Positions 1 through 60,138 of a stretch of DNA of 64,000 nucleotides are shown in pieces (position 1 is the first letter of the stretch; every line of letters begins with the position of its first letter). A program made the position numbers and the translations under genes. The notes beneath the pieces are model-generated. The model was not told the DNA's origin and ran no database searches. It saw only the letters and a program-made list of their open reading frames with translations. This DNA is from Hydractinia symbiolongicarpus (lineage: Eukaryota > Cnidaria > Hydrozoa > Anthoathecata > Hydractiniidae): positions 25,055,001 through 25,119,000 of the forward strand of contig NC_079882.1 of the NCBI RefSeq assembly GCF_029227915.1, written 5' to 3'.

Positions 1-187
1 CTTCCCTTTAATCATCATCAATTACACTCGCACTATTCACACTGTTACATTTTTGGTCTTGCCAGTAGTTTGTGCATTTCTTTCCTTTTATTTGCGAAAA
101 TTAATTCCCGCAAATATTTGTAAACACCTGATTCGCGAAAATTTCTCCTGGCAAAACAAAGTACAATAGAGACGAAAGAATACAAAC

Positions 188-22158: not shown

Positions 22159-22339
22159 CTAAAACGAAGCGAATGAAGTAAAAGACATAAAGCATGAAGG
22201 TCGTAATCATGCTAAGTGGTCAAAAGTTAATGTTGAAATCACATAAATATATCGAATGTTCCACAATATAAAATTACATTCTTTGTTGTATCATAACGCG
22301 TGGCGATATGATATAAAAAAACAATGTTAGAAAACTTAC

Positions 22340-28269: not shown

Positions 28270-31200
28270 CTTATTCAGCACAAATTCTGGTCGGCTTTGC
28301 CTTATACATCTTAATATATTGAACACATCAACACCTTTCTCCAATTTCAATTGATCCAGTGCATTCTTGCAAGCGATAAATGTTCCAGTTCGGTATGCAC
28401 CATCACTATACACAAAAGTAATATAAAATGACAATGCGTGACTTTTGTGAATGTTGTGATACATTGTTGAAATTTGTAAATATAACAAAATAAACATTAC
28501 AGCAAAATAAGATGAATGATGTCTAGTTTAGAAATACAATAGTTATATTAAAAAAGAGGAAATAAAAGATTTGCAAGATTTTTCAGCAAAAAAGAAGGAC
28601 ATGCAATTTGTTAAGCAAAAGCACTATACCTGCATGTTACTACGACGGTACCACCACCAAGTCTTTCCTGAGACTTTTCAAGTTCACCAATTAGCGATAT
28701 AACATTTTTAACGCTTGGAAGTTTGGTAAGAGACCAATTTGTAAGTTGGAAAATGTTGACGTAACGTTTTACCTAGTTGACATACAAATAATAGGATTAT
28801 TATAATTTGTGCAACATTTAAATTTCTACTGAATAATTTTTGTATGACACAAATTAGACATCCCGAAATTTAAAGTGAAAATAAAGATTGCTAGGTGTTT
28901 ATACAGACTGATGACTCTGTGTCTTTTAGCACAAACTCAAGAAAATAGAATTCTTTAATTAGTATCTCGTTCATTACACAGGATACAAAATATTAAGAGA
29001 AAAAACATGTCCCAAGTGACAATACTTTTATCAATGCATATTCTAGTCAACAGAATGTTACATGTTTGATACAGTACAATGACAAGGTTTTTTTCTTATT
29101 TTTGCAAAAAGCTGTAATAAGTGTAATAGTGAATATCACGTTCTGTTAGATATATCATACATGTAAACAATATACAATTTTCTAACCTGTCTAAATTATA
29201 ATTAACACATAAAACGAAATGTTCATATGAGTGTGTAATTGCCATCAAACTTACATGGGTTGGGGTAAAGGGAAATTTTACAATGTACAACCAGTGTAAC
29301 ATACAACAGTGTGAAAATACTAGTCGTTAGACCGTGGAAAAATCCATGGGTTTTCCCGTATTTTTTATACAGCATTGCGTGCATCTCGCTATGTACGCAG
29401 CTAAGCTACCATTTTGCGTGACAGACAGACAGACGTATACGGGTATTATAATATAGATGTTAAGACGAGGCCTTGTACGCCCTGATGTGGATTATTTTGT
29501 TGTACAGCAGTGCCAAAAAATGTGACTAGCAGATTTAGCTATCCGCCTGTGCTAAATATCAAGTATTTGACAGCTTGTCTATATTTAAAAAATGACAAAA
29601 AGCCACTTGTCTCAACAATTCTTTCTAAGATTGTAAAGCATAAATAAGTTTTCTAATACTTACTGTTATTCTTTGACTCACATGTTCATGTGAATTAATA
29701 ATCACATTAAATGCTAAACCTATTACTATACCTTTAATAATAAGGCCTTTGTTAAATTTTTCCTTTCTTTATTAGCATATTACTATTATTAGTTAATAAC
29801 CTAAAAAATACAATTAATGTTTTGATAAGTTGGTAATATTATTAGCTGTCTCAAAATCCTAGTTTCAATCTAGTAATTTATATTAACTTTAACATACAGT
29901 ATTCACCCTAACTTGCATTAGCTTGAATCTTTCTGATATGTGAGTTTAAGCCAAGAGTCAAAATCCAATTCATGTAACATCTTAGAGTTCTTACAGCATG
30001 CAAAATCACCCCCCCCCCCCCAAAAAAAAAAAAAAAAAATTGGAAATTTTATTTCGGAATTACTTTATAAACGTCACCAAATATGATTTCTTCAGGTTTT
30101 TGTTGATGGTTTGCATCGTTTTAAAAAATAAATTTATATCCACACAAGAAGGGCCATGCAAAATAAATAAATAGTGATTCATCTTTTTAAGATAGTTGTG
30201 GTTAGTAGCTTGTCATTAGTAAGTTAATGTTATATTTTACTGGCAGTATTTACTAACATTCTCATGCATAAGTTCAAGAAATACTTCAAAGTATATTATC
30301 TGTGGAAAGTTAAACTTCAAAGTCAATACCATACTCGCCATTACTTACAGCCAGCCAATTTACATTTATCAGTGCAACAACTTTTATTTTTGTGTGCCTC
30401 AAATTACCTTAAGGAAATTAATTTTCATGGGAAGTTTTGTGAATTTTCAGCAATTTTGCAAAAATTGGCTACTGCGAAAACTATTAGGAAACTTGCTATT
30501 TGAGAAATTAATTACCTTTATTCCTCTTTTTAGCCTGCTCCCTGTATTTAGCCCTCCTCCAGCGACTTAAAAAGTTATTCAACCCCCTCCTTTTATATAG
30601 CCCCCCTCTCCCACTCCCCCCCCCCCAAAAAAAAAAAAATAAAGAAAATAAAAAAGTAAAAGTACTCAAAGAAATTCGATATTATTTGTTGACTTAAAGT
30701 AATATACAACGATATCCATATGCTGCAGCTTTAATTTTTTCTCCCCAAGTTTTGTTTGCAAAATATCTATGTGTTTTTTTTTTACAACGGGCTGTAAAGA
30801 GGAATAAGGTAATGAAACTTATTTTCCGCCAAATTAACGAAATGTAGTTCTTGCAAAAATTAAATTTTATTTTTATAAATTACTTGCGCAAATTAAAGTA
30901 AAGAATGACCTTTTAGAGATAGATACAATATTAAATAAAATTTTCTTGTAAAAATTAAGAAAAATTCTTTTTGCTAAAATAGCATTTCTTAAGAGGTTTT
31001 ACATTGAGCAGCATTCAAAATTAAAACTGAAAGTTTTACCGAAAAGAAAATTACATACTTGTTTTAGTGTTAAAAGAAAATATCTGAGTAATATAACACC
31101 ATGTGATGCTTCAGAAACCAATTTAACTGAGATTCCTTCGAGATTATCATTTGGAACTAACCAAATCACAGGATACTCGGCATCCTTTCCTTCGTTGAAA

Positions 31201-31378
31201 TTATACAACATTACAATGCTTGTGACATTCTCCTTTGCAACCATGTTCCAAAAATCCAGAACGGTTTCTTTTAATGGAGCTTGTGTTGCAATAAAAGCAT
31301 TCCTTTTTTCATAACTATCAACATACACAGCATTTATGTAATCTGATCTTTGTGATAGAATAACACGTTTTCTGTCAC
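28270..31378 (-). CDS. Gene B: PTP domain D2 (three exons found)
   Basis: Exons 31059-31378, 28630-28772 and 28270-28405. Segments: SDYINAVYVDSYEKR, IATQAPLKETVLDFW, VTSIVMLYN, TNWSLTKLP in place of the WPD loop, and VVVTCSDGAYRTGTFIAC. The CX5R cysteine and arginine are kept, but the WPD aspartate is not, so D2 is probably inactive or nearly so, as is common for RPTP D2 domains. The open frame ends at RPEFVLNK|GTATGA. The last exon expected after it was not found. Confidence 0.88.
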
Positions 31379-34300
31379 CTAAAGAAAGTAATATATTTTT
31401 TAAACCAGTAATACAGAACTTTTTGTGGTTTCAAATTGAATATAAAAAACGAAACAAAAATAATGTCAAATACTTAAATACTTACATGCAACTATTTCTG
31501 GAAAACGGTTTTTTGAGACATTAGAAGGACTTGAGGAAGCAATAAGAGTTGTTTTGATTGACTTTTGTAAATCAATTAACTCTTTAAATTCTTTTTCAAT
31601 GACACATCTTCCTTTTATATCCTTCTTACCTTTATTACATTCTTCTTTCAACTTTCTAAGTAACACATATTTGTTACCATGTGTTATGATTTCCCAAACC
31701 ACCTTATGTATCAGTAGATACTGTTCAAAGCAGACATTCAATAAAGGAACTTTACGGATAATCATATTGAAGGTGTTATAAATATCAATGTTTTCTTCTT
31801 TTTTCATTCTTATCAAATTTTGAATGACAATAATCAGAATAATGTCAAATCCACAACCAGAAATGTCAATAAAAGAAATTTTTGTTTTGCTTGAGGTTAG
31901 AGCTGTTTGCTTTAAGGATCTGCATATGTTCATTAAATATTCTGTCGCATCAATATACTCCTTCAACGGCAATGCCATAATTTCATATAAACAAAATCTA
32001 TGTTTCAGCTTTCCATAGAGGATTTCTACCTCTTCAATTGTGTGATCTGATAGTACCTTCGTTTCATGCAAATATATATTATAATTTCCATGTTTTCTTG
32101 ACTCTCCTACTGAGAAATCAAGGATTTTCCGTGATCGTAAAACATCATATGGTTTGATAAGAACAACAATTTGAAACTTCTTTTGGAAAACAATTTTCCA
32201 CATATCAGGTGAATTATCTGTCTGTACATGTTGAAATATACTGTAACCAATTTGACCATCATCCGATGGAATTTCAGTTACTTCATTCACAGCTGTAGCA
32301 TCATCTTGGAAGTAAAAATACTCATAATTCTTTATTGACAAATCTATTTGTTTTTTAATCTCTTCGAAGTCACAGTTTGACTGCATGGTAAAAAATTTTG
32401 AAAACTCCACCTTATCCATAGGTTCATGCTGGGCTGTTAGAGTCATGTCTTCATAATGCACGCGATTTTTACAATTTTCAAGTTCTAAAGATATCATAAG
32501 CATTAAATGTAAATTTAAAACGCATACCGTTAACATACAGAAAAAATATATAACCTTCACAATATATATGTGATTGTTTTAAATCCTACTGGTAAATGTC
32601 ACCCTGCACATTCGAGTCCTAATAGTTAGTTTTTTACCGGTAAAAAAGCCGGCAAAAAAGGTCAGTTAAATTTTCATTTCTGTTTGTTTACTTCACATAT
32701 GATATTCAGTAAAAAGTTTAGACTCTGTCGGAGGCAAATTAGAATTACAGCAAGGTCAAAATGCTAAAATTCTGTCTATTTGCCATAACTCGTGATCAGC
32801 TTGAGAAATCCGAATACATATGAAACAAAAAAATTTCTATCCAGAAGTGTTCAAGTTTATCAACGCTACTGTAGCAGGTAGCCTGAAATCAGATTCAAAG
32901 TTTAATGGTTGTCAGTGAAAAATAATGGAAATTTCTGGCTCTACAAAAATGTGCTGTTGTTCCAATGTTGCATGTTATTTAACTGCAGACTTTGCATTTA
33001 TGTGCAGAAAATGCCAAACTTTTTATAAATAGCCGTAACATATCTTCACATTTTTACTTCTAAGTGCCAATTTTTTTATTAAAAAGATAAACTACAACAT
33101 CACATTTCATCTCATTTTGCACCATTTTGAATTTAATAATTGTACATCTATTACATAACTGATAGAAATTAAGTAGAACTTTTTTATCACTTCTTGTTTT
33201 TAAATGATGATGAGAAAATGGTATTTTTACTGCAGTATTACCATTAGAAAATTTAATTGAAGGGTTAAGTTTCTCTTAAATATTAAGTCAGAATTATTAC
33301 ATTGACATTTGTTTTCAAAAAATATACTCAATTTAATACCTTTATAACTTTCTTGATTGTTTAGATCACTGTCCACAAGATCTTGATACTGGGCTTCTTG
33401 AATTTTTATGCCCATGTCTTGATAATAATTATCATGTTTTTCAGCAAGATGAAATTCTAAAAACATAAAGGCTATTTACTGATTTTACACGATTCAGTTT
33501 AAGGAACAAACAACGAAATTTCTACAGGTTTTTTTACTAAAAACATGGCTGGCAAAAACACTCTACATTATGATGGAGTGTGATCGCCTCGCTAACTTTA
33601 ACGACTCCTCTATTGTTCTTAAAGAACCACATGACTATATACTCGAAATAAAGGAGAGTCTTGTGATTCTTAACAAGAACGCAATGAGATTTCCATTATA
33701 TTTATTTAATTTAATTTTTTGCACACGTTTACGATTGTTATATAGTTTTTGTTCTTTTTAATGACCACAGCGTAGCATTCTTTTCTACATTGGCCGTCGT
33801 TTCAATGTCCCAATTTGTTTTAACCACCTCTCTCAAATCTCACTTCTCTATAGCAGACATGCCCAACAATAGGTTATATAAAAGTCTTGTAAGAAGTCTG
33901 TCTATACAATTTGTTACAATTTTAAAATATTAACTGTCTGCACTAAGATAAACCAGAATCTGAATTTTTTTGTAAAGTCTGATTTTGTTTTATTTTTATA
34001 AATCAAAGATGGCATCGTTGAAATATATATAGTCTTTCGGCGTCTTTGTCTCCCAAAAACAATCTAACAATGGCACACTTTACGGTCGACTTTACTATAC
34101 ATTAACACTGCAGAGCAGGGTTTCGAGGCAATATAGGCCAATTTGAAGCAAACATCTATGTAGCGAACACCTTCCCTATAGCAGACACTATGACGTCCTG
34201 ATGGTGTCCTCTATAGAGAGATTTCACTGAAGCTTGATGATTTAAAGTCAAGAAGAATGCCACCTTAATTTTTAACTTTTTTGTGTTGTTTTCTTTAAAA

Positions 34301-37300
34301 AGACACAATTAATAAAACAAAAAAATTATCAGAAAAAAGAAAAATATAGCAACATAATTCATAGTCACATTAGGTTGACATTTCATAATGAAATCAACTT
34401 TTCATAATGAAGATTTTCTATTTTCTCATTTTGTTTGTTTTCCCTCATTGCTTCTCTTAGTTTATCTCCGCTTACTTGTGCACTTTGTTTTTTAATTTGA
34501 GCTTAGTTCCTTCCGATCCTACTCTATTTGTTTGCCACTAGCATTTCTTCAGTCTTTATAGATTTGTAGATTTTTTATCGTATATTGATGGATGCCAAAT
34601 ATATGTTTAATAATAATAATGAATAATGCTTTGCTATTGCTTATACTATTGTTTGTGCATCCAAACATGTGCATGTGCTATCTTGGAAATTATTAGATTA
34701 ACAATTTTCAAAAGACATAATTTTAGACCTTTATAATATTCTTGATTGTTCAAATCACTGGCTATAAGATCTTGATACTCCCCATCTTGAATATTCATGT
34801 GTTGATAATAAACATCACTTTTATCAGCAATATCAACTTCTAAAAAATATGTTAATTTTATTGATTTTAAGGAATGGGTAATAACAAAATCTTCACACTT
34901 TTTGTACTAAAAACAAAAATATAATGGACATAAACACTCCCTTAATTTTTTAGGTCAAAAATTCATCACTAACAACCTTTATCAACAATATTATTGTGGA
35001 AAATCATTTTTCTTGATAGTTTAGTGGGCGCCTACGAAACTATTATGTTTAAGAAATGATAAAATTTCCACAATAATATGAATACTGAACAGAAAAACCG
35101 AAATAATATCTTTAATTTATCAACAATCATTGCAAATATTGTACAAAACACAGATATAGTATATCAGATGGTATATGGATTAATGGAGTGACATTACGCT
35201 ACATCAGTAGCTAGCTAAAATAGCTAAATTTTCTGACTTCTGACTTTTTCACTTCTAAAGTGATCGTTGAGTGACTTTTAAAAAACAAGACTTTTTATTG
35301 GAAACAGAAAATTCTTGTAATAATAGTCATATTTTGTCTGTTCGCATGTAATGTAAATCATGATCAGGAAAACAAGTAGCGGATTTTTCAAAAAGAGTCA
35401 AAAGGAATCCATACATGTTTTGCCCTGCTTACATACAAAAAGGGGTTCTGAAAATTTTTAGTTAAAGACATGGACAAAATATTGCAGATTTTCTTTTAGA
35501 CTAATTTGTAGACCTCAAAATTACTTTTATCTAACCTACAGGTTTACAGTAGGCACTGTTTCGCAGCAAACCTATTTTGAGAACTATAATATAACAATGT
35601 ACAAGGTTAAATTTAACCGTGTAACCTAAAATATGAAGACAGGTTGACTTGGTCTAAAATGTTCCTAAAATTTATTGCAATTAAATGGCTTATTTCAAGA
35701 AAATTTAGTAATTTAGTAAATCCAAACAATCCCAACATATAATATTTTGCACCTCAAAATGTATTTGGAGGTGTGTAATACATTTTTGGAATAAGCGTGA
35801 AGTTCTTCTTTAAATGTGGCGAAAGTCCCTTAATAAAAAAGGATTATCCAATATCAAAAAATCTGGTCTTAACAGAGCTAAAAAACTTCATAATACCTAT
35901 ATCTTGTCAGTTGGTAATGCTAAACCAAGTTGTGACACAGAAAGCGCAGAAAGTTAAAGTTAGAAAAGACAAATGTAATACACCTTATGCTAAGGATGCA
36001 TGATAAATAGTCAAAATTTTTACTTTTGCTAAGGATGCAAGCCTAAGACATGTAAAATGACTAGTACCTTCGTAACATTCTTTATTGGTTAGACTATGGC
36101 TGACAAAATCTTCACAACTTTCATATTCAACTTCCATAACCGCATTTTCATAAATGTTACTTTGGTCAACATTCTTGACTTCTTAAAGTAATAATAGTAT
36201 AATAGTAAGGGTCCATTTTTTTCCACAAAATATCTGGCTACAAGTACCACAAATCCATTTTTTCGTGCGCAACTCGGCCATGTTTGTTTACAAACTAATG
36301 TATTCAGATAATTTATGCAAATAACAACAAAATAATTATTTTATTTTTGAACTGTCCATTTTTAAAATGGCGAACTAATGTGGCAGTGTTTGTGGCCAGA
36401 TATCAGTCCTTTTTATCAGCTCTGATAAGTGTTGTTGGTACATGTGGTAACTGTTTCCTAAGTTGAAAAAAATGGACCCTAAATGCTACATGTCGACCTT
36501 AAAAAAAATGTAACCTAATACCTTCATAATAATCTCCATGCTTTTGTAAATCAGCATTGTCATGATTTTGGTGATTGCAATCTTGAACTTTTATTTCCAT
36601 GTCTTGGTAATATATGTAATTTTTGACATCAACATCAACTTCTAAAAATAATAAAAACAGAGCACATCATACATACTGACTTTCATCCTAATTTAATGAG
36701 AAAATTTTTAATTCAATACCTTTACAGCATTCTTGAAGTTTGTCTTGGTCGTTTTTTACAAGATTCCGGTAATTCAAAACTATGTCGTTTTTATGTTTAC
36801 TCTGAATACTGTTCCCTTTACTATCACTATCAATCTCTTCTATATTTGAAATAGTATATTTCCTAAACCTAAAATTAGATGAGACAAAATAATCAATAGC
36901 CTAAATGCAGGATGTTGTACCTAACCCTTACACAGAACTCTCCCAATAGTGAATTGTGATGCTATTCTAGTAACTCATATAAAATCAAGCAAAAAAACAA
37001 GACTCTTTACTTTTTGATCTTCTTTTTTAAATGCAAAAGCTAAAAATAACCATTACCTAACGAAAACTACTATTGCCAATATGACTAATACAGTAACCGC
37101 ACCCACTGAAATGCCAATAATCAATAAGAGATTTGAAGAAGGAGGAGAGTAATTTGTTGGAGCTAAAAATAAAGTTTGCATTTCATGCATACTTGTAAAC
37201 GCTAACTGATAGACAAAAGCAATTGATATTTGTATTATAACATTCAACTAACAAGTAATTTTTCACACTGTAATTGACTAGGACACTTCCTTGACTTTAG

Positions 37301-40300
37301 TGAATGCCTTATAAGTCAAAGCCAAAGATTAAATATGTTGTTCTGGGAGAAAAACAATTCAAGAAGAAAAGTTGCATATCCATAGGTACTGTCGGCATGG
37401 TATTACACCTCACATAAATTAGAGTACGAAATTATTTCATATATTAACATGTTTCTTATATTATTAAGCCTATTGTCATTCATTCTTTGTTTTGTTTCGG
37501 AATTCTTTTTTGTACAACAGACCTGCAACAAACAAAGTACCTACAATTGCTATGGTAAACGAATAATCTAGACCATCTTGTAGAAGACAACACATCCTAA
37601 AGTAAAACAATGATTTCTGCAATTACCTTTAGTAAATTGTCAAAACAAATTAATAATTAATATCCGATTTCTATATACGCAAAGTAAACTTTTTTTAAGA
37701 GTACACCTTTATTATATCAATTGAACACACTATAACTCTTAAACTGCAGAGCTGAATAATCTCAATAAAATGCTATCAGAAATACTGATAAATTTGCCAT
37801 TAATAAGGCATCAACGCATTTTCGGATTCACAGTTAATAGACTTTAATAAAAAAACACCCCAAAAAAATCTACCCTGGAGCATAAACGCATGTTAACGTT
37901 TTCCTGATATACTTTTAGCAAAAATATATCATCATGGAGTTGAGCACATAAAGACCAATATGTTCAACTTTATCTCGTTTTTAAAACACAAAGGTTTATG
38001 CATTGTTTCAATAAATATTAATTAAAATTATTACACGTTTTTTACAAGAACCAAAAAAATTCTGAGGCTGACTGCTCTTACTACTCAATTTAGCTTAGCC
38101 GAAATATATTTATTATATTAAGAAGGTAATTCAAGATTCAACAGGCGCATAAAGGCAGCGCAAGAAGGGTTGATCATAATTATTATCAGTTAATCTCAAG
38201 AATCATCATCAAGAGTGTTTTTTACTAAAGGAGATTTTAAGTGTTGTCTCTTATTTTCGTTTCCAATGCTTTTCAGGAAAAATTCGAACAAGATGGATAG
38301 TTCAAATAAAAAACAAGAGGCATATTTTTCTGTTTTAGTCAGTCTGGTAGTGAGCTGATTCCTTTCATACTCATTCTGCCATACATAACGACGGATGTTT
38401 CAAGGTGGAGTTTATGACTGTGAAAAATAACATACCACAGGATTTAATAGTTAGGGATGTTATTGTGCTAAATGTTTTTGCCAAACTTGAAGTTTATGGG
38501 ATATATTATTGACTGGTTTCAACACATGGGTCCTGTGCTTTTTGCTCTATAACAAGTAATTCTAAGGTTGTGGCTCTAGTTTTAGAATTTGTGAAGGGAT
38601 GGGAGGGGGGGGGGGGTTGTGTGGGCAGGAGTTTTTTAAAAATGACGTTTAAATAATATGTGACAAGTATGAAGTATGGAAGGCACCCCTAGAGCTGACA
38701 TTGCTCCTGGTAAAATATACAAACAGGGGTGCCAGTAAACAGCATAGGGCGTAGAAATTGCATACATTGTTAGTGATTGTCATGCTAAGCCTGTAAATCC
38801 GTGGTAATTCACCCATCAGAAAAAACAGGAATTCACTTGGTGGAGTCATTTGAGTCCTTAAAATAGGGTTGGTAGGCAAATAAAATATAAAAGTGTCTAA
38901 CTATCCATCAATAAATGCGTGCCATTACACAGATATTTAGTAATAACTGTGTGCTGTTTTAAAGGGAACCTGAGGTATAAAATGATGTTCGGCTTATATT
39001 ATGGAGCTTAAAAAGTTGGTTAACAAGTCTTTTTAAATTTTTTAAAAAGCTTTTTTCGTTCTCGATATTCTTTATTATAGATATTCACGTTTAAATAATT
39101 TTAGATTTAATTATGTTGCATAAATTATGATGTTATATTTAAGTAATAGCAATTTTTGACATTTTTTGTCATCAGTAATTTTAAACCTGTGGAGGGACGT
39201 GCATTCAAACTTTATCAACGCATAGATATTATGAAGGTGAATTGTAAGGCAGATCCCAAGTTATGGGGTCAACAGCCAAAAATTAAGAGGCCTGGGACGA
39301 GCAAACAAGTGTCATTATGTTAATCAATTCACCTTTAGTAGTAAGAACACGACTTTAAAATTAAGGCTCATTTTGTTCTTATTTTCATGGTTTTTTTCAC
39401 AAATTTCTCCCAATCAACAAATGTTTTGTTTGTTTATAATGGAGCACTATAATTGTATTCAAGAACAATCAAGTTAATGTGAATACTCTTCACAGTTATT
39501 TTAAGTGAGAAAAGAAACAATGAAAAGCACAAATCAGTATAAGTAAACCTGCGAATCAACTGCCCAAGTGCTGCAAGGATGACAGATTGAGTGGGACTTA
39601 ACCCACCACCTCTTACTTGCTGGGAAATTGCTCCGCCGACTGCCCTATCCGATGTAATCTTCCTAGCACATGTTGTAAACAAGGCAAGGATACCACGCCT
39701 TTGAAACATACTTGGAAGGCAAGGTGTATTTCCCTTGCAACTCACCTTTCTACTAACATGTATCAACGAGATATTACCAAATGATGCACAGAGGTTAAGT
39801 ACCAACCAAACAATCTAGTGTGTTGCACTTGTTAAACTCTTTACACCTGGGAGAGGCCATTGCCTAACGAAACTGGTTTCAGCTTATACTATAGAAACAG
39901 TGGTGTATTGGTATAATGCAACCTGCACATTAGCTTCCCAAGTGCTGCAAACACCATAGATCAAAATGAAAATGGTTTACACTTTCATATTACTATTTCA
40001 GAATAAAAAAAGGCTGATCTCTCTATATGTCCAAATTGAGTTAGTATTTTTCAGGTAAATCAATATTTTTGTTTTACAATTTATAAATAGATTCATATCA
40101 AAGTCATATTCTGCAGGATAAAATTGGTTGCTGATTAGTTTCCTTTTAAAACGAAATTGTTCCATTTCTACATGAAAATAACTAGCACAGTGAAAAGACA
40201 AATTAGTAGCCCAAACTGACACTATAAAAAATGATTTGTTTTCATCTTTTTAATGTCTGATAGTTAAACGCCACGGTGAAAGTAATGGTCAACTATGAAT

Positions 40301-43300: not shown

Positions 43301-46300
43301 ATTTTTTACAGATTGGAAGAAGAATAGAACATAAATATCTACCTTAAATTTGACGGTCCTTTGACCAGCTTAACTGAAGTCTTGTTTCTGACAAATATCT
43401 CTGGCACAAGTAACTTTAAGGAATCGCGTTCTAAAAAAAAATGTTAAACTCGATTTTAAGTAAATTAGTTTCATATTCATATTTTTTTAGAATAGCTAAC
43501 CATCTGGTAATTGAAATCATATTTAAAATTTATTATTTGACTCACTGACTGAACTTTAATGTAATGTGCTTGCATGGTAGTTGCAAAAAAAAACCAATAA
43601 AGAAATACAAAAGGTGGATTTTCAATGCTGATACACATTTATCTAATATCTGGTTAATGACGATGGCTTTCAGTTACTGCACACAAATTATTTCGCTGTA
43701 GTGAAATATAAATACACTGGTCAAGACAGCAAAAGTGCAAGATTTAGACTGTGGCTGTTATAGAAGCATTTTTTTATAAAAGTCACTTGTCTATTATTCT
43801 TATAATTAACCCAGGATAGTCTCCATTTGTTCTTCATGAACTATCCTCTTATTTATATCATGAAAGTGTGCAAGCACAACAGCAACTCCACTAGACAACC
43901 GCCTGTGATCATTCCCATGCTTAACTTTCAGCAGAAAGGATTAATTTATCACTCTGGCATGACTTTGTCGCGATTTGGACCCAAGACCTTCTGCACTCAA
44001 AGCAACTTTCTCTACCACAAAGCCACAAGTCACAAAAATAGTGGATGGTCACTTTCTTCTTTTTCCCTCTATTGTTCTTAAACAGATATTGACATATTGC
44101 AGTAAGAGATAGCAACAGAAGCATTTAAAAAACATAAAACATGTAGCGTAATTCGTGCATCGGAATTGAAAATCTGAGATGAGTAACAGTAGTGATGTCT
44201 TGTACCATTTAAACTTGCTTGCTTTAATTTTAACAAGGGTGAAAATGTTGAAGTTTTAATGTTAAGTTCTGAAAAAAAATTGATTTTCTTTCAATACCAA
44301 TACCATATTAATATTAAGTTAATACCAATATTTTTCAGAAATGTTGACATGTTTGTTCTCGTCATTTCTTAAATAGGGATAAAATGTCTATTTTCACAAA
44401 TAGCAGAATGAAAAATCGCTACTTTTAAACACTTATAATGGAGCAAATATAATAACTCTTGTTAGGATTATCCTTAAAACTTGAAACTTACAATACAACT
44501 TTGTTTCATAAAGGAGAATAATTTTCCATGTTTTTGATGCGTGATTAATCCGATTCCCGATTTTTACCGATTTTAACTGAAAATCGGAAAAAAACGAATT
44601 TTCGGGCAATTTATTGCTGCCATTTTATTTCTTGTGTGATGCACTATAAGTTGCCAAGTTTGATTCAATTTGAAATTCCCAATGAAAACTTATTGAGGGA
44701 GGGGTGGGGGGGGGGGGGGGGGGGGGCGAATCCCAGAAAAATATTGACCAAAAATTAAATCCTGATACATCTATTCGGTTTTTTTTGCCTTTTTTTATTT
44801 TCAAAACAACAGGTGGTAACCCAAAATATAAACAAAAGAAACAATAAAAAAATTATAAGCCAGATGCAACTATATCATTCTCATTGCGGCAATTTGTTTT
44901 ATTATGCACACTTTGATTAATGAGAAAAAATAATACAAGAAATCAGAAAGTAACTTCTCAGACTAATTGCTAAAGATCCTAATAAAACATCTAAAGGTGC
45001 AATTACATAGTAATTTCTCTGTGAAATTATAAAGAGAAAATTACCAATTGTAACTTGAGTTAAATTTCCAAAGTAGCTGATATTGTCAAATCCATGTTTT
45101 GAGATATCCTATTAAAAAAATAATTACAATAGTTAATATGCGAAGCAACACTGCTGATATAAAAAAAACAAATCTCACATTTCCATATATTACAGCTCGA
45201 GCATACAGGTAATACTTCTCCATGGTTGATATTCTTGCATTTAAGCCATCAACGTACTCTTTGCCTTCCACAAAGTAATATTTTATACCATCTGGTGACA
45301 GATCATCAGCATACACCATAGCAGCAAGAAAATAATCAAGATTCTTTAACTCTGATTCTTTTTGTTTTTTTAGCTGAGTTGGTAGATTAGACTTTCTCGT
45401 AGTTGATATCACAATTTCGTAATAGCTACACAAATCAATGTTGTATCATCAGTCGTTATAGTCAAAATACTGTTATTTTAATGGCTTATTAACCATATAG
45501 CCAGTTTATATTGGAGAATATAGAAAGAGTTTATGACATATGGATCAAACTCTGGTTTGAGTAACAAAGGTCTATATTTTCTCGTACAGATAAGCTAACG
45601 GTTAATAAGTCATTTGGTATCCAACTCAATAATAAAAAAATAATTTAACCAAAACTCACAGGTTAAAACAAAACAAAAACAGTGACTGAAAATGTAAGCA
45701 AATGTTCGAAAGACAAATACAAAATTCATTTAAAAATAAACAAACATGATTTCCATCAAAACACTTAACCTTAAGTTTTTCATAATGATGTACCATGAAT
45801 TGCATAGGCGGGTTCCAAAAAGCAAATATGGCAAATGACTTTGAAAATACGAAACAAATCTTTTTTGTGAGTCAAAAGAAAGAATTATAGGTAGCGCAAA
45901 TATTAAAATACTAAGCTAGTTGTTTAGTTCCTCATATATGCACACAGATTGATTAATTTAGTTAATAAAAGCTATATTAGGCATACTGAAAACATTAGGG
46001 TGACTATATAAGACTATATAAGACTATATACAAATCTATATACAATACAAATCTTGATAAATCTACACACTAGTTTTGTAACGTAATGAGGTTGTAACTA
46101 ACTTACCTGATTGGTCCATTACTATCTGACGAAGAAGTCAATGTTATACACGTAATGTTGCGATATAATGTGATACTCGTAATGTTGTTAGTTTCATTTA
46201 AACAATTAATCTTAGTAAATCCAGGTGGTGGTGGTTCTAGTAAAGCCAATATTAAAAGAAACAATCTTAAATATAAATTTTTCTCTGTCATAACTAAATT

Positions 46301-49300
46301 GCAAAATTAGGTAGGCAGGAAAAGTAACAACTACAAAATAAACAAAACAAAACAAAATAATGAAATAAGTTATATGTTCAAGATGTTTTTAATCTGCTAA
46401 TTTTTACTAACTTACTTTTTGGTTGAATGTAAAAGTTGAACGGTGCGGCAGATTCTGTAACGCCTTGAATATCTGCTGTAATATTAATCTGAACACGAGC
46501 TGCTGCAACGTTAACATTAAAAACGTTGAAACTTAAAGCAGATGTGGTAGTGTTGATAGTTTGAAAAGAAAAGTTGTGTTTATGTTCATAATCCTTAGAT
46601 GCTGATATTGCAAGCTAAGAAAAAAAATCAACTATATAGAATCCATACATAAAGTCCTTTGAAAAAACAATACACCACCTTTAATTATTGTACTTAAATA
46701 TCAGATTTTTTTTAGAACAGAAATATTTGGAATGATACAGATCTGTAAAATTAAATTCTTGCAAAAAAGTTTCTTTAGCTGGTTTGCAAATTCCTTTTTT
46801 GTTGTTGCTAAAATTAACTCTCCCGACATACACCAACTCGGAATCAAAAGCTAGTTACAAGAAGACGTATTCAATAAATACTTATCTGAATTCAGTCAAT
46901 TAAAAATTATAAATTCTGCCATTTTATACATTAAACAATATTGGTCTTGAAACAGAAATTACATACAACATATACCAAATACATACATGATATTTGACTG
47001 AGAGAGGTTGTGAAGTCGATGCCTTCCAAGTAAATGTGATTGTAGATGAAGACAAACTTGCTTTTATGGAATGAGGCTTTTTGAGATCTACAGAAAATTA
47101 GATAAAATAAAAAAAAATTACATTACTTACAGCAGCGTAAGTTAAAATTGTGATAATTTTTGTTTTTGCTAGACTAAACATTTTATTAGTGGGGGCTGTT
47201 AGCACATAAAAAGTGTTAATACTTCAAGTTTTGGTATGCTGTTACTGGATGTGAACACTGTTGCTGTATTTGCTGGTAAAGGAAACAAAAACTGCATAAA
47301 AAATATAGGAGTAACGGAAGCATTGGCCATGTATAAAAACAATATTTTAAGACTTAAAATGACATTATGATGTTTTATATGCTTGTTTATATACTCTGCT
47401 TATTATATTCACTTTTCAAAGAGTTTTAAATAAAATAGGCAGTTTATAAACACTGGAAAGAGACAAGATTCTTTTTTTAATTTTATTTCTTATTTTTGCA
47501 GCTTTCCAGTATTACACCATACTGGATCACCATCGGGAAAGTATCGAATGGTTGCAAAGAGCCAATCAAATACTGTTGCAAGAAGAAATGTACATCTAAC
47601 AAATGTTACTGCAAAAGCTTGAGTTTAAACTGCACAGAGTCATGTTTCTGTAGAGGAGATTGTTTAACAGTTTTATAGCTATGTTAAATGTTCATGCATT
47701 GATTTATTTTTGCTAAAATAATTTTTTCTTGTTATATTTTTCCCAAAAAAAATCTGTCGACAACATGACTTATATTGTATATAACTCGTTTCCAGGCTTT
47801 TTTCAACCCATGTTTTCTATTCCAAATTAATCACCACTTAATATCCTATCAATTGGCATATTATAAGTCTAAGTTTAAAAAATTTTCCTTACAAAGATAA
47901 AAAATGCTGACGTCAGCAATCACATGACATTTGAGTGTGTCTTCCTCAGAAAATCCTTTTCATGTGTGATAAATAGTATGTTGTCGAAAGTTTCATGCTT
48001 TTATCAAAAACTGAAGTATAAATGTGCTAACAGCCCCCACTAATAAAATTTCTTATACCTAATTGACATCCTTTCAATTGGAATCTCAAACAGCATTTAT
48101 TATGGTTACAAGATGTCGCAATGATATACAAGTAACTGGTTACGACGTGAGGATTTAACCAGTTTACAGATAATGGAAATATTCGTTCAGATACACCAAT
48201 TAGATTCTAAAGTATAACATATAAAATCTTAAATATGGAAAGCTTTGAATATTCCTTTTTCATTAACCTTTCAAGAAAAATTTTCTTTACTGTTTCTTTT
48301 AGCCACCATTAAAATATGTCAAATAATTATTTTGTAGCAGCTATCAAAACACAGACATCTGCATTAGGAAACATGTTTGGCAGCAGAATTTGGCCCTCAT
48401 TAAGGTTAGCATTGATACTAAAATGGAAATTAAGAAAAAATCACAAACTTTCTTTCATATACACTATATAATTAATCATATCTGACATACCTGAGGAAAG
48501 CCAAAAATAAACAACCTTGGACAAAAAGGCGGTTCTTGCAGTGATGGTTATTGTAGTTTATGGCAAAAAAGAAATTAAAACAAAAGAAAAAGGTTGCATG
48601 CTGGCTATAAAGCAGAGAAAGCTTTGTTTTGCTAGTGAGATGTGTTTAGAGAAAAGCAACAAATATACAACAATAAGCATGCTTATTTGATACAATAATT
48701 TCTGAAATAAAATTTGCTATTCCTATATAGTTTTGATATATTTTTACTTGCAAATTCCTCAAAACTTATAGCAACGAATATAAAGATACGCTAAAAGTTT
48801 CATTTTTTGTATTGCTCACTTTCTGGAGTTGGTATTTTGAATTCTAATTAATCATATAAGTTAAACATGTGCGAGTTTTTAAAAATTTGTATAAGATTAA
48901 TCATAATGACCAAATATCATAGGTTTGATAAATATATGACAAATCATATATGATTATTCTTAATAGTGTATTATAGCACAAACCATTACCTCAAGGAATC
49001 GATTTTTACGCACACCATATTGTACTTTGTAGGTTTTCACCCAGCCATCTGTATTTGAATCTCCTTGCAAAACAATTCCAGAGATCACTATTGGTTTGTT
49101 AAACGTAACATTAACATAATCTGAAATGCCTTTTAAACACCATGTAGTTGGACTGTCAATATTCATATTTGTTCTAGATGCACCATTATTCACAGATATA
49201 CTCAAATTCATAATCTGTGAACATTCTAAATTAAAACAAAAAGAAAATTCCATAATTATTAGAACATTTAAGGGTTGTACAAACATAAAATAAAATTCAT

Positions 49301-52300
49301 ACCTAAATCATAACCATAAATTTCAACCTTCATACTACAATGTCCTGCACAGCTAATTGCTGTTATTCTCATATTTTTCATTAGTGTTGGTTGCCATAAA
49401 GGAATAAAAACTGCAGATACCTCTGTATTTTCCTTAAAAACCTAAAGTGAATTAACAAAATAAAAAGTGTTACAGGAAGTCACTGTATGCCCCTTTAGTC
49501 TAGCCATAAACAAAACTCCTAGTCTGTTTCTTATTCTGCGCAGTAACATGTTATTGAAATTTTTACACACTTAGCTGCATTTTTAATAGGTCAAAACCCA
49601 ATAGGATTAGATAATTGACACTAACCTGATTAGATCTGATAAAGTTTATGCTATCATTTGAGTAGCTCAATTTGTACGTTTTAACAAAATGCTTTTTAAA
49701 AGCTTGATATACACCTTCCATGGATATACCAGTCACAGCTTTAATTGTCACAAAATCAACTTGCAAATACATTGGAAAGGTTGACTGTTTATACAACCCT
49801 ATTCCAGGATAAAATAATCTTGCTGCTGTTGCGTTAGCTCCAGTACTTTGTGTTAGTTGTGAATTCTTTATGATGCTAGTTGACATACCCAGTGGCAAAA
49901 AAGTGTCTAAGAGGAATGGTAGAAATTAGGGAAATGTGAAATAGGACAGCTGAAGCAATTAAAAGACTTAATGTTCCAGAGGCAAATTCCTTAAGGTCAA
50001 TGAGGTTTAGTGTATGAATAGGCTGATGACATTATCCAACTCTCTTAAGATATAGGGGTATATCTCCTTAACGGTTCAGCAAAAGCATAATTTTGGTCAG
50101 CATTTCAAGCTCTACACAAAAGGCTGGGGTTTAACAAATTTGTGATTTTTTTCGATGTAAATGGATCATTAATGTTGTCAATAAAATAATATCTATAACT
50201 GCAACCTGTGTACGAATTTATTGGATCAAATAAGACCTCAATCTATCGTTATATCTGCACGTTTTATAAAAGACATACAGGACTTTGCCAGTCTGGTATG
50301 CATGAAGATGAGAAAGTAAGCTAAACCTTTACACATAAAGAGAAATAACAAAATGATGACCAACTTACTGCTCTTTGAACACCCAAAAAATTCCACTCTT
50401 AAACACGGTTGAGCTATAGAATCATTATGTCTCTCTATAAGTGTTGCATACAAACGAACATATGTAGCAATCATTGGTGTAGTAAACCAGTTGTATACAA
50501 CATTAATGTTATCAACGTTTGCTGTAAATTCCTAAAATATGATTCTGACATACAAACAAAAGTTAACATACCACAAAAGTAAGACTGACGATATAATTCT
50601 TTTAAGTCCATAACTGTAACTTATCTGTTGTCTTTCAAGTATTAAATTAAACAATGATCTTTCATTATAATTTTGAAAAATAAATAGCTAACCTTGCCAT
50701 AGTCAAATTTATGCCAATTAGTTCCATTGGTCGAAAACTGAAGCTTAAATCTTCTGATAAAATTTTGGTAATAATTTGGATCACCTTGGATAGCCATCCC
50801 ATTGATTCTTGTGTTTTGGGTAAAACGAACCTAAAATAAAAACCTTATTCTTTATTTCTAAAACATTTAACTAGCTTAGTACAGTACTATTGTCACCCAA
50901 TAGGAGACAAATTAGTTTTCAGATGCTTAAAAAAAACTCACTGAATGCATGTAGATTTAAAAAGAAATATTTATATTCTTCCGTTTTGGAATGTCAAGTG
51001 GTACAACTTTCAGTTGAAGGAAAACACGAGTGTTTCACAGTCAAACTCTCTTAAACAAGAACTACAATATTTGTATTAAAGTTAAGCTATATTAGGAAAT
51101 ATGCACCTAAAACCACACAATATATCAGGTTTTTAAATTAGACAATGAAGATTCGACCGCTATTTGTGAAGAGCTGACAGCGTGAACAACATGTTTTCCC
51201 TCAAATCATAATGCTTATCCTTAAAAATAAACCTATAATTGGTTTGAAAGTATCACATGCCATTTACTGACCCAAAGAATGTGAATAAAGATAAGAGAAT
51301 ATTGTCTTTTAAATTACTCCTGGTAGGTTAAAAGCTCCACTCTGCAAATTTGTTGACATCAAAATTATAAACTTAACTTGTGAACAGTTAAAGACAGACC
51401 TGAAACCATTGTAATTTATACTCTTCTAAATATGTCCCACTCTCCCCACACCATGCCACTGAAGAAAATAATCTTCCATGGAAAGGTAAATAAACATCGT
51501 TGAATGATGAATGCGCAGTAATCTGGTTGGAATTAATATAACCATTAGACATTCCCAGGGGAATACGATCCAAACATGCTGTATAAAAAGAACACAAAAT
51601 GGTATAATATTTTGCACAATAATCAATAAAAACAACAAAATGAATTTAATATGTAGATGGGTAAGTAAAGTTGTTTGATTCTTACTAAAATTTTTGCAGC
51701 AGATTGCCACAAAAAAAAGAATGCAATCTTAAATTGTCTGACTTCCATTGTCTATTTATCTACTGATAACTTTGGGCAATTTGACTGCTTACTGGACTAC
51801 AGTTGTAAATAATCAAGAACAAAACTAATGTGTAAGTACTAGATTTTCCTGTTGACCTTAATGTTCTACATTCTTGTTTTCTTTAAAATGTTGAAGTGCA
51901 CATGAGAAGTTAATAATGAAAAGCATTTTTCGATATTTATTCTGAAAGTTGAAGAAAAATACTATTTTGACTTTAATATTTTGGTCAATTCATAATCTCA
52001 TATTAAATTAATATGCCATTATTCTTAAAAAATTCTTTACGATTTACTTTGCATGTTAGAGAAAGTTTGAAAATTTCGTGTAACAAGAACAGAAGCGGAT
52101 AATAAATAGCTCAGACACACCTGTCGCCTGTTTTTCCTAAAGGCCGGAATGCACTTGTGTAAAATCTATAATCAAATATCCACTGGGGTAGGATAACAAT
52201 GAAAATTTGAATTTTGATGACATCAGCAATGACCTGTCCAAATAACAAAAAAATTAGGAGTTTGTTGCCTCTATTGTGTAATTTAAAACGCTGACCAATA

Positions 52301-53043
52301 TATATGATCACATGCTTTTCCCGAATGCTTAAAAAAAATTTAAGGGTTTTAAAATTTTTGCTAACATCAGCAAAAGCCCTGTCATGTGCACCAAAACGTT
52401 ATCCAAAATTTATTTACCTATTGCATCCATTGTGTATAGTATGAAAATCTGTTTATACAAATGTACAGGGTCATGAGGTTTTAATGAACAGTTATTTTAC
52501 TAGTGCCAACAAAAATCCATTAAAATACAACAATGTTTTCTAAAAACCAGCTGCCTCTGTTATATAGCACCTGAAATGCTAATCAAAATAATGCATAAGA
52601 TCATGTGGTCTGGTCGCAGGTTGTACCTAGTTACCCATGCGGTAAAAAAATACTGATGTCATCACCCCAGTTTTTATTTAAAAAGTTATAATATAATCAT
52701 AATTATATTATTAAATATATCTTAATACCAATATAATTTCTTAAAATAAGTTTATAATGTGATTATAACTATACTGTAGAAAATATTCTAATGTTATTAT
52801 ACAAGTGTATCTAGGCCTTTTAATAGATTACACATCCCGTGATCATGTCATCGGCATATGCGGACAGATTATAAACAAGAAAATTCATGTGCGTTGGATA
52901 GCAGAAATTGCTTCTTGTTGAAGTTTGTGGAACAAAATTTTCAAAATGTCCCACAACAGTGAGTAAAATTCTGCTTACCGTTTGATAGAAGTAAAACATA
53001 ATTCCAACAAAGTAGAATCTTAAAAACAAAAATCATTATTGAC
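28270..53043 (-). CDS. Gene B: discoidin/FN3 RPTP with dead D1 and expanded tyrosine-rich juxtamembrane region
   Basis: Paralogue of gene A. Coding exons in transcript order: 52979-53036, 51400-51578, 50693-50830, 50369-50531, 49626-49906, 49303-49441, 48990-49225, 48059-48206, 46987-47087, 46416-46614, 46107-46236, 45179-45425, 45045-45108, 43343-43430, 43040-43212, 41933-42057, 37545-37596, 37057-37162, 36720-36868, 36522-36641, 36068-36181, 34729-34839, 33340-33456, 31486-32484, 31059-31378, 28630-28772, 28270-28405. Phases agree throughout: 1,612 codons with no stop. Approximate residues: signal 1-19, discoidin 20-179, 180-319 and 320-447, FN3 448-673, membrane exon 841-875, juxtamembrane 876-1079, D1 1080-1412, D2 1413-1612. 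D1 has lost the catalytic cysteine, arginine and WPD loop, yet the frame is fully open, so this looks like selection for a non-enzymatic role. A final short exon like that of gene C (QYxFxY...) was not found below 28270. Confidence 0.88.
31486..32484 (-). CDS. Gene B: degenerate PTP domain D1 (pseudophosphatase)
   Basis: A single 999-base exon, fully open, aligned by position with D1 of genes A and C through IDIYNTFNMI (IDIYNYFESI in A), FEQYLLIH (VEQYKFVH) and SKNRFPEIVA (SKNRYPDILA). The P-loop HCSAGVGRTG is replaced by DISGCGFDII, so both cysteine nucleophile and arginine are gone. SWPDHG is replaced by ALPLKEY, and the KNRY loop is gone. The domain is about 30 residues shorter than in gene A. 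It starts with HYEDMTL, another YxxM motif. It cannot be an active phosphatase by the known mechanism. Confidence 0.87.
33340..36868 (-). CDS. Gene B: five juxtamembrane exons with repeated tyrosine motifs
   Basis: Exons 36720-36868, 36522-36641, 36068-36181, 34729-34839 and 33340-33456. The last four are all phase 1-1 (120, 114, 111 and 117 bases), begin GA(A)-GTT/TTT and end at an AAG|GT donor, and code for related sequences. Visible motifs: YRNL (exon 1), YYQDMEIK (2), IYENAVM (3), YYQHMNI with EYQDLI and EYYKG (4), YYQDMGIK with QYQDLV and SYKG (5). A further YEDM follows at the start of the D1 exon. YxxM is the known binding motif for PI3-kinase p85 SH2 domains and YxN for GRB2. Binding here is inferred. 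Genes A and C have a single exon in this place. Confidence 0.85.
37057..37596 (-). CDS. Gene B: stalk and transmembrane exons
   Basis: Exons 37545-37596 (52 bases, as in gene A) and 37057-37162. The first encodes DVLSSTRWSRLFVYHSN, matching DDLYSTLWSKEFVAPKD in gene A. The donor was fixed as T|GTAGGT because the more obvious AG|GTAC five bases on gives the wrong phase. The second encodes PTNYSPPSSN and a hydrophobic helix from LLLIIGISVGAV to VVFVR. Confidence 0.83.
39540..39665 (-). repeat. Possible tRNA-derived SINE head
   Basis: On the minus strand GGGCAGTCGGCGGAGCAATT and GTGGTGGGTTAAGTCCCAC have the spacing of A-box and B-box elements. No family match to the other SINEs was seen and the limits are uncertain. 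Confidence 0.4.
41340..41545 (+). repeat. 5'-truncated SINE, same family as 7961
   Basis: Shares the body of the 7961 SINE: AAGTCATGCCAGAAACT, TATCCTTTCTGCTTAGCG, TTGATATCTTAGACAG and GAGGCTATCCTG, then a TAATAAT tail. The polymerase III head is missing or unrecognisable. It lies in the 4.3-kb intron of gene B upstream of the stalk exon. Confidence 0.7.
41933..45425 (-). CDS. Gene B: second FN3 unit and membrane-proximal ectodomain (five exons)
   Basis: Exons 45179-45425, 45045-45108, 43343-43430, 43040-43212 and 41933-42057. Motifs: SYYEIVISTTRKSN, YYLYARAVIYGN, ETADYDEPYIAGVFNK, VGDFVLG, EYRNGPLVDGETYAVF. Where gene A has the polybasic GRRRRRS, gene B reads SHAWKTN, so the furin-type site is absent. 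Two of the five exons (88 and 173 bases) have the same length in both genes. Confidence 0.9.
42330..42680. repeat. Dispersed repeat, copy 2 of the 21330 family
   Basis: Ordered similarity to 21330-21800 (see that entry). It lies next to the gene B exon at 41933-42057. Confidence 0.55.
43805..44045 (-). repeat. tRNA-derived SINE, minus strand, same family as 7961
   Basis: On the minus strand the head reads GGTAGAGAAAGTTGC with GGTCTTGGGTCCAAATCG as the B-box region. The body has AATCCTTTCTGCTGAAAG and CGGTTGTCTAG, and the end has GACTATCCTGGG. It lies in the gene B intron between 43430 and 45045, which is much longer than the gene A counterpart. Confidence 0.72.
44700..44727 (+). repeat. Long G run
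   Basis: Nearly uninterrupted run of more than 20 G after GGGAGGGGT, in a gene B intron. Similar but shorter homopolymer tracts occur at about 38605-38620 (G), 30008-30040 (C then A) and 30615-30640 (C then A). Such runs are prone to length error in assemblies. Confidence 0.9.
46107..47087 (-). CDS. Gene B: start of FN3-like region (three exons)
   Basis: Exons 46987-47087, 46416-46614 and 46107-46236. They encode KKPHSIKASLSSS with TFTWKA, then AAARVQINITADI and FNFYIQPK, then EPPPPGF and TSSSDSNGPI. The last exon is 36 bases longer than in gene A and contains NETNN and NITS, candidate N-glycosylation sites. Phases are 1-0, 0-1 and 1-2. Confidence 0.83.
47180..48049 (+). mobile_element. Inverted-repeat DNA transposon with a cysteine-rich CXC-like remnant
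   Basis: A 28-base terminal inverted repeat is perfect at both ends: 47180-47207 (containing TTAGTGGGGGCTGTTAGCAC) and its complement at 48022-48049. Inside, 47505-47678 encodes KYCCKKKCTSNKCYCK and ESCFCRGDC, a cysteine spacing like CXC/tesmin-type modules found at the C-terminus of some mobile-element proteins, after a possible splice acceptor. It fills most of the gene B intron between 47087 and 48059, which is only 79 bp in gene A. The element is about 870 bp, most likely an internally deleted copy. Confidence 0.8.
48059..49225 (-). CDS. Gene B: discoidin domain 3 (two exons)
   Basis: Exons 48990-49225 and 48059-48206. Contains IDSPTTWCLKG, SGIVLQGDSNTDGWVKTYK, FPLSVNWLN and the closing LNGC-like end. 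Exon lengths and phases (1-0, 0-1) mirror gene A, but the split intron is only 783 bp. Confidence 0.9.
49303..49906 (-). CDS. Gene B: discoidin domain 2 (two exons)
   Basis: Exons 49626-49906 and 49303-49441. Includes LPLGMSTSIIKNSQL, YLQVDF and CSMKVEIYGYD; the terminal cysteine is replaced by tyrosine as in gene A. Two in-frame acceptors nine bases apart fit the second exon (ends 49441 or 49432); the outer one has the better tract. Confidence 0.9.
50369..51578 (-). CDS. Gene B: discoidin domain 1 (three exons)
   Basis: Exons 51400-51578, 50693-50830 and 50369-50531. Key segments are CLDRIPLGMSNG, AWCGESG, NGMAIQGDPN, NVVYNWFTT and QPCLRVEFFGC (closing cysteine). The first and third exons match gene A in length exactly (179 and 163 bases). 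The middle exon is two codons longer than in gene A. Confidence 0.92.
52979..53043 (-). CDS. Gene B: signal-peptide exon and start codon
   Basis: The ATG at 53036 opens MIFVFKILLCWNYVLLLSN, a strong hydrophobic signal. Its donor (ACG|GTAAGC) leaves phase 1, exactly what the first discoidin exon (xCA TGT) needs, and the splice makes SNACLDRIPLGM. A TTTTTTAG acceptor sits seven bases upstream of the ATG, so the transcript has an untranslated first exon farther right, as in gene A. I could not place that exon. Confidence 0.82.
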
Positions 53044-58766: not shown

Positions 58767-60138
58767 TCAGTTGAAGTTGGAATATGTAGCAAATGAGTCC
58801 AAATACTGATTTAGCACTGTGTAAATAAACTGATACTGCCTCTAGATAGATAAGAACTAAACTATTAGAAAATTAGTTTGTAGTCTAATACGCATTACGA
58901 AGTATTATACTTACAAGATTTTCAACAAATTCTGGTCTGACCAATCTCATTCTTCGTACAGTTTGGAACACATCAATATCTTGTTCAACTTTCAGTTGAT
59001 CTAATGCGTTCATGCAAGCTATCAACGTCCCACTGCGACTTGCACCATCACTAAACAAGATTATAAACTTATGATAAACAAGGAAAATTTGATATACTTT
59101 CATCAATTTTAAAACTCCAAAAACTGCAACAAGAAAATATTGAAAAACTGCATCAATACAGTATGCTTCTACTTTTACCTGCATATTACCAATATTTTTC
59201 CATTTCCAAAAGCCTGTTGTGATTTCAGAACCTCTCCAATCAAAGTAATAATTACATTAGTGTTTGGAATATCATGATTTTTCCAATTTCTCAGATGCAA
59301 AAAATTAACTGTTGCTTTTAACTAAAGAAAAATTAAACTCATAAAAGTATTGCAGTAAAGGGATTAGTATCAGGCTCTTTAGTGTTACAAGCATCACAGG
59401 CCAGCACTAGACCATTACAAGAAGTTCTACATAGGCAAAGATAAATTAATTTGTTATTCTACAGGCAGGGAATATGATCTCGGAAGAAGTGTTAAGCAGT
59501 GTTTAATTAAACTTTATAAGTATTTGTGAAACACAAATAATTAAACAAAAGGAAATTATGGGATGTAGAACAACCACAAATAAAGATATTTAATATTAAC
59601 TTTGGTTGATAAAAATAGGTCATGGATTATCACTCCATAATTTTTTGGAAAAATATGGTGAGTCAGGCCTGTAGAACAACTAAACAAATTGCCTTTCCCC
59701 TATTGCAACAAAACAAAATTATATTTTGTTGAATGGTAATAAAAAGGTTACATGCAATTGATTATTTATATTCAACATCTTAAAAAAAAAGAGTATAAAA
59801 GAAATTAAGAAAAATTACTGATCTAACCTTTTTCCCCTGTACAACAAAACGTCTTTGAGAAATATCACCTATTTCAACCTCTGTGACCAGTTCTACTGTT
59901 AAGTTATTGAACTTTAATTCCTTATCTGCTGGCCAGTACTTCGGGTAAATAGAGCCATTCTCATTAAGTTCATGAAGCATGACTATTGTGGTAACGTTAC
60001 ACTCTAACACCATCTGCCATAAATCTTGCACTGTGTCATCAAATGGAGCTTGTGTAGCTATCAAGGCATTTTTTGCTTTATATCCATTGATATAAACAGC
60101 ATTGATATACCTTGAAGTATGAAGCAAGGCACTTTCAC
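58767..60138 (-). CDS. Gene C: PTP domain D2 exons and stop codon
   Basis: Exons 59828-60138, 59179-59321, 58915-59050 and 58767-58841. D2 opens RYINAVYINGYKAKN, then IATQAPFDDTVQDLW, VTTIVMLHE, and closes with the CX5R loop CSDGASR split by a phase-2 intron (AG|T), the same place as in gene B. The two middle exons equal the gene B exons in length (143 and 136 bases). A 3' UTR should follow below 58767; a reverse-strand AATAAA lies near 58295. Confidence 0.92.

Follow-up and report, generated by a model that had tools for sequence, protein, structure and literature searches.

Receptors that come in activating and inhibitory pairs have been described chiefly in vertebrate immunity, with KIR, SIRP and PILR among the examples. 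In a further pair, CD300A and CD300C, signalling is opposite, and the likeness of the extracellular parts is maintained by gene conversion (PMC12447643). We describe gene B (LOC130655137), which lies with genes C and A in a run of three adjacent receptor phosphatase genes on the minus strand of a 64,000-nucleotide stretch of the hydrozoan Hydractinia symbiolongicarpus (NC_079882.1, positions 25,055,001–25,119,000; hereafter the window). With a probability of about 0.5, sequence comparison places gene B in a paired-receptor family, composed of phosphatases and of phosphatase-dead, tyrosine-docking partners with exchanged ectodomains.

The likeness to CD300A/CD300C lies in near-identical ectodomains borne on opposite cytoplasmic modules, together with homogenization of the ectodomains. 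In contrast to the vertebrate pairs, the restraining arm here would carry its own phosphatase domain rather than an SHP-recruiting ITIM (immunoreceptor tyrosine-based inhibitory motif), and the other arm would be a dead phosphatase with a tail like an ITAM (immunoreceptor tyrosine-based activation motif). Human PTPRU, a receptor pseudophosphatase of the R2B group, retains the cysteine of the catalytic site, with WPE in place of WPD and GSRQ in place of KNRY (PMC7320164). Gene B has lost this cysteine along with the arginine, WPD, the KNRY loop and the DYINANY block; its ectodomain is of the discoidin type and its tail is a tyrosine array. Tandem phosphatase domains (D1 and D2) and a single transmembrane pass are shared with LAR and CD45, from which gene B differs in its three outer F5/8C (discoidin) domains and its lost catalytic motifs.

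In the same animal, candidate allorecognition genes are reported to carry ITAM- and ITIM-type motifs, with matching signalling genes in the genome (PMC12065747). The Alr genes belong to the immunoglobulin superfamily (PMC11067881), while the LOC130655137 family has discoidin and FN3-like ectodomains and PTP domains. The allorecognition complex lies on chromosome 3 (PMC11876637). LOC numbers in Hydractinia rise with chromosome number (LOC130630016 on chromosome 2, LOC130635943 on 3, LOC130644743 on 5 and LOC130647443 on 6), which makes a later chromosome probable for LOC130655137, and we regard a link to the complex as unsupported. By titles and abstract openings in PMC, a source that leaves most of the subscription literature outside, no listed paper dealt with this Hydractinia phosphatase family or an ITAM-tailed pseudophosphatase receptor, and neither the Hydractinia genome paper nor the cell atlas uses the word 'phosphatase' in its main text. 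One of the listed papers, PMC10491807, contains the terms receptor-type, tyrosine phosphatase, cnidarian and discoidin.

Catalytic motifs and tyrosine tails

Gene B belongs by homology to the receptor-type tyrosine phosphatases, with PF00102 matched in two stretches (E=1.1e-64) behind one transmembrane segment. In D1 the P-loop HCSAGVGRTG has become IDISGCGFDI, with Asp for Cys and Phe for Arg; LPL stands in place of WPD, there is no KNRY, and an alignment gap takes the place of the DYINANY block. The family alignment thereby bears out a preliminary description of the locus, which had reported D1 to be without the P-loop cysteine and arginine, WPD and KNRY. That description did not mention D2, which keeps CX5R and has lost the WPD aspartate (WSLTKLP). 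In six paralogues with an intact D1 P-loop, D2 has two residues separating W-P/K from D (W-P/K-N-H-D) and keeps CX5R in the form CSDGA-N/S-R-S-G. By motif, D1 of gene B is certainly a pseudo-enzyme, and D2 probably is one as well, with CX5R retained. Counted among the six paralogues is P0003 (P0001–P0007 denote protein records), in which D1 has WPH (WPHHG) for WPD and an otherwise intact P-loop; it is a third member with an altered general acid and possibly a natural substrate trap.

The D1 exon of gene B contains no stop in 332 codons; base shuffles average 28, and none of 20000 was stop-free. Its predicted structure has a PTP-like fold with a fold match (mean predicted local distance difference test score, pLDDT, 62.7), and the nearest PDB sequences are CD45 and LAR. 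As modelled, D1 fits a pseudophosphatase, with catalytic residues lost and the PTP fold kept. Over D1, saturation of synonymous sites (proportion differing, pS, 0.73–0.74) left no usable ratio of nonsynonymous to synonymous substitution rates (dN/dS) for B against A or C.

The same dead module occurs in a second gene, P0002 (LOC130655622), which is 46% identical to gene B in D1 and 62% in D2; the D1 CX5R, WPD aspartate and KNRY that mark a catalytic phosphatase are lacking from both. The alignment gaps in D1 are as in gene B, and 84 residues common to the two differ from all six paralogues compared. The change is therefore not private to B and points to an older conserved class. The protein cluster of P0002 has five member sequences, with an isoform X1 named. 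We consider that B and P0002 are best explained as a small dead class within the discoidin receptor phosphatase family, of which seven Hydractinia members were found, every one on a contig of 33,075,650 bases. A protein search with the tail and D1 of gene B matched only B itself, by a method based on five-residue words that missed the true relative P0002; by the same method, residues 575–825 of P0002 returned only the seven Hydractinia members, a result that does not establish absence from other species.

After splicing, 230 residues with 20 tyrosines lie between the membrane and the D1 core of gene B. Judged against 20000 shuffles, this tail is enriched in YxxM (4, shuffle mean 0.51, p = 0.0002), in YxxPhi (10, mean 4.03, p = 0.0018) and in relaxed ITAM pairs of the form YxxL/I/V/M/F, 6–12 residues, YxxL/I/V/M (6, mean 0.45, p = 5e-5). 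If a strict ITAM is defined as YxxL/I-x6-12-YxxL/I in a cytoplasmic tail, the 68-residue tail of P0002 holds two that overlap, YQDL-x11-YEEL-x9-YEQI, a count reached in none of 20000 shuffles, and it has no YxxM; the tails of P0003–P0006 have no strict ITAM. The final three motifs of gene B, YQDL-x10-YKEL-x8-YEDM, align by eye with the trio of P0002. On these tail sequences, the ITAM-like array, not YxxM, appears to be the feature common to gene B and P0002.

Five juxtamembrane exons of gene B, JM1–JM5, encode most of this array. JM4 and JM5 are 81% identical in nucleotides, and related copies are also seen in JM2 and in the last part of JM1; JM3 was missed by the repeat search. The lengths of JM2–JM5 are divisible by three, so that any one of them could be skipped with the frame intact. 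The motifs YQDM, YENA, YQHM, YQDM and YEDM that had been assigned to five juxtamembrane exons are all present, although YEDM sits on the start of the D1 exon. A constant spacing of inner tyrosines in each exon was dropped as an idea, since by eye x10 occurs only in JM4 and JM5. The YxxM motifs of gene B look like a later elaboration through exon duplication, and the best explanation of the gene as a whole appears to be a single-pass receptor with pseudo-phosphatase domains and a tyrosine-array tail derived in part from that duplication.

These domains also allow the main rival explanation, in which gene B acts predominantly as a PTPRU-like scaffold: the dead receptor would bind or sequester substrates, or dimerize with active paralogues, thereby raising local phosphotyrosine, and the tyrosine array would be secondary. 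PTPRU, whose D1 is dead, binds substrates of its active paralogue (PMC7320164), the pseudophosphatase D2 of PTPRK recruits the substrate Afadin (PMC9640194), the D1 fold of gene B is predicted to be kept, and D2 is better conserved than D1 between B and P0002. Such a scaffold leaves unexplained the duplicated tyrosine exons of B and the ITAM pair of P0002. We think it unlikely as the dominant function; it is compatible with docking and does not exclude it.

Ectodomain relationships and the proposed paired-receptor reading

The outer part of P0002 is 88% identical to that of P0006 (89, 91 and 96% in the F5/8C domains, 94 and 80% in the FN3-like parts) and 59% identical to that of gene B. Inside, the order is reversed, P0002 sharing only 22% of D1 and 47% of D2 with P0006 as against the values given above for B. 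P0006 has intact catalytic motifs and by motif is apparently a working phosphatase. The likeness between the two drops between P0002 residues 800 and 840, just short of the transmembrane segment at about 842. P0002 and P0006, taken from protein records only, thus show the paired-receptor pattern of a near-identical ectodomain on opposite cytoplasmic modules. Trees of the outside and inside conflict strongly in approximately unbiased (AU) tests: a B+P0002 clade was rejected on the ectodomain (log-likelihood 127 lower), and P0002+P0006 on the phosphatase domains, whether D1 and D2 were taken together (226 lower) or D2 by itself (81 lower).

Within the window, genes B and A differ at 80 of 207 four-fold sites in exons 2–18, which encode the ectodomain and transmembrane segment, against 25 of 37 in D1 and the first D2 exon (p = 0.0019); in exons 2–12 alone the count is 55 of 160 (p = 0.0003, the split having been chosen post hoc). 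Third-base composition is alike. Because synonymous differences are fewer outside, A and B seem to have outer parts of more recent origin than their inner ones, the state expected after exchange or conversion, and exchange is the cause that we infer for the discordance between outside and inside.

Since the ectodomain of P0002 matches that of a paralogue with intact motifs, we favour paired receptors over a simple change of role, and, dead and intact modules beneath exchanged ectodomains being the pattern of paired receptors, we take B and P0002 as the SH2-docking arm. The phosphatase arm would consist of A and P0004–P0006, and perhaps C. Partners with similar ectodomains would encounter a common ligand or surface; the working member would take phosphate off and so form the restraining arm, whereas the ITAM-like array of the dead member would be phosphorylated by a Src-type kinase and recruit tandem-SH2 (Syk/Zap70-type) proteins, forming an activating or scaffold arm. 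Gene B would additionally recruit p85-type SH2 proteins, and may possibly be dephosphorylated by A or C. Syk/Zap70 homologues with ITAM-binding SH2 domains are reported from invertebrates possessing CARD-CC and Bcl10, as is ITAM-dependent signalling by Shark (PMC5978004). We infer a common ligand, the direction of the signal and, for gene B itself, the pairing. A fuller proposal, that a cnidarian has an inherited paired set with a phosphatase-bearing inhibitory arm, a dead-phosphatase activating arm with an ITAM-like tail, and ectodomain exchange that keeps both matched, is more tentative, and we would sooner bet against it. If the scheme is true, the logic of vertebrate paired receptors would have been built from other parts in a model animal for self/non-self recognition, and the principle invented independently outside the immunoglobulin and lectin families. 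The balance of tyrosine signals at cnidarian cell contacts would become testable with a few named genes, and gene B would be a clear case of a phosphatase turned possible phosphatase substrate.

Several observations weigh against the paired-receptor reading. The single strict ITAM of gene B (YQDL-x10-YKEL, p = 0.11) is within chance, and one is also present in the tail of gene A at about 2840–2590 (YDEI-x8-YYNI, p = 0.008), although D1 of that gene is intact. Values of dN/dS of about 0.9 for JM4/JM5 and 1.2 for JM3/JM5 suggest little purifying selection on part of the array; other juxtamembrane comparisons are lower (JM2/JM4, about 0.38). The groups in the AU tests, like the exon 2–12 split, were picked after the identities were known. 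The contrast between B and A is graded, exons 13–18 (25 of 47 four-fold sites) being not significantly different from the cytoplasmic sites (p = 0.26), which divide into 9 of 17 for D1 and 16 of 20 for the D2 exon. Gene B has no close partner among the six paralogues found, its best ectodomain identity being 60%. The largest single doubt is that P0002, known from a protein record, could be a mis-joined model; its switch sits where a wrong join also would.

Were P0002 such a chimera, there would be no pairing, and B and P0002 would be tyrosine-tailed pseudophosphatases without shown exchange of ectodomains. The end of the likeness to P0006, at or just before the transmembrane segment, speaks for this, but B and A, both in the window, have ectodomain exons less diverged synonymously than their cytoplasmic ones, and the P0002 cluster has its several sequences and named isoform; we judge a chimera quite improbable.

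We rate a shade lower still the reading of the preliminary description, in which a single gene became a docking receptor for PI3-kinase p85 through YxxM motifs and is acted on by A or C. Its loss of D1 catalysis is clear by motif and docking is plausible, and the excess of YxxM in the B tail speaks for it. However, P0002 shares the dead D1 and has no YxxM, with two strict ITAMs instead, so that neither a change confined to B nor p85 recruitment as the shared feature can be upheld, and the conflict between outside and inside is left unexplained. That gene B is a decaying relic with D1 drifting neutrally would suit a D1 less conserved between B and P0002 than the ectodomain or D2, and dN/dS near 1 in some juxtamembrane copies, but it is scarcely credible given 1626 codons without a stop or frame break, a stop-free D1, a dead D1 kept with shared novelties in a second gene (grounds on which a pseudogene was also rejected) and a B–A dN/dS of about 0.32 across 781 codons of the ectodomain and transmembrane exons other than exon 6.

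Gene models and other features of the window

Gene B was rebuilt by a splice-aware search guided by similarity to gene A, with manual assembly. The model (minus strand, 53036–27582) is a single open frame of 28 exons with one terminal stop, GT-AG at 27 of 27 introns and compatible phases throughout; an earlier count of 27 exons was right as to the open frame and had missed the final coding exon (HQYGFIYEVVSTMF*). The corresponding RefSeq record, P0001 ('uncharacterized protein LOC130655137 isoform X2', Hydractinia symbiolongicarpus, 1597 amino acids), matched in a protein search with 100% identity over 98% of the query, and equals the model from Met29 onward bar one Glu at the NAGNAG acceptor of JM3 (window 36182), where acceptor choice in isoform X2 removes the residue. 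The prediction is thus backed by a separate annotation, probably from the same assembly, and chance exons strung together were rejected on this agreement and on the 28 exons in phase. Isoform X2 begins within exon 2 and hence is without the signal peptide. The F5/8C domains of gene B match PF00754 in three stretches (E=1.6e-36); PF00041 is matched in P0002, P0007 and P0006, and not in gene B itself.

Table 1. Features of the window (window coordinates).
Feature	Coordinates	Strand	Remarks
Gene B exon 1, signal peptide MIFVFKILLCWNYVLLLSN	52979..53036	-	hydrophobic start; GT donor in phase with exon 2
Gene B exons 2-8, three F5/8 type C (discoidin) domains	48059..51578	-	paralogous to gene A exons
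Gene B exons 2-5	51578-51400, 50830-50693, 50531-50369, 49906-49626	-	
Gene B exons 6-8	49441-49303, 49225-48990, 48206-48059	-	
Gene B exons 9-17, fibronectin-III-like membrane-proximal region	37545..47087	-	paralogous to gene A exons
Gene B exons 9-13	47087-46987, 46614-46416, 46236-46107, 45425-45179, 45108-45045	-	
Gene B exons 14-17	43430-43343, 43212-43040, 42057-41933, 37596-37545	-	
Gene B exon 18, transmembrane segment	37057..37162	-	hydrophobic stretch, aligned with paralogues
Gene B JM1 (YRNL)	36720..36868	-	juxtamembrane exon
Gene B JM2 (YYQDM, YYEEV)	36522..36641	-	juxtamembrane exon
Gene B JM3 (YENA, YESC, YEEV)	36068..36181	-	juxtamembrane exon
Gene B JM4 (YYQHM, YQDL, YYKEF)	34729..34839	-	copy of JM5
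Gene B JM5 (YYQDM, YQDL-x10-YKEL)	33340..33456	-	last motif completed by D1 exon
Gene B exon 24, YEDM then catalytically dead D1 (by motif)	31486..32484	-	PF00102 E=3.4e-9, motifs lost
Gene B exons 25-28, D2 and stop	31378-31059, 28772-28630, 28405-28270, 27626-27582	-	D2 CX5R kept, WPD aspartate lost
Gene A (RefSeq P0007)	1..22211	-	discoidin receptor phosphatase, D1 intact (2643-1555), D2 runs off window
Gene C	58767..64000	-	D1 intact (61746-60664), D2 (60138-58767), ectodomain outside window

Genes A and C keep an intact D1, as had been claimed. The single short juxtamembrane exon ascribed to both agrees in A with P0007, the exon start not being fixed by a spliced model; it is unproven for C, where the transmembrane exon was not identified. 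Gene C is none of P0003–P0007, its D1 identity to them being at most 60%. The signal peptide of gene A, MKDFVLTVVFF, lies in the open reading frame 22211–22047.

Rfam gave no match in the window at gathering scores. Upstream of the open reading frame with the gene A signal peptide lies a tandem repeat (23750–24615, 430 bp x2, 96%), and another lies inside a gene A intron (18395–18682, 95 bp x3, 95%). Upstream of the gene C D1 exon, an open frame on the plus strand (62663–62977) matches part of the THAP domain (PF05485, E=4e-7) and may be what is left of a transposon, or else a nested gene.
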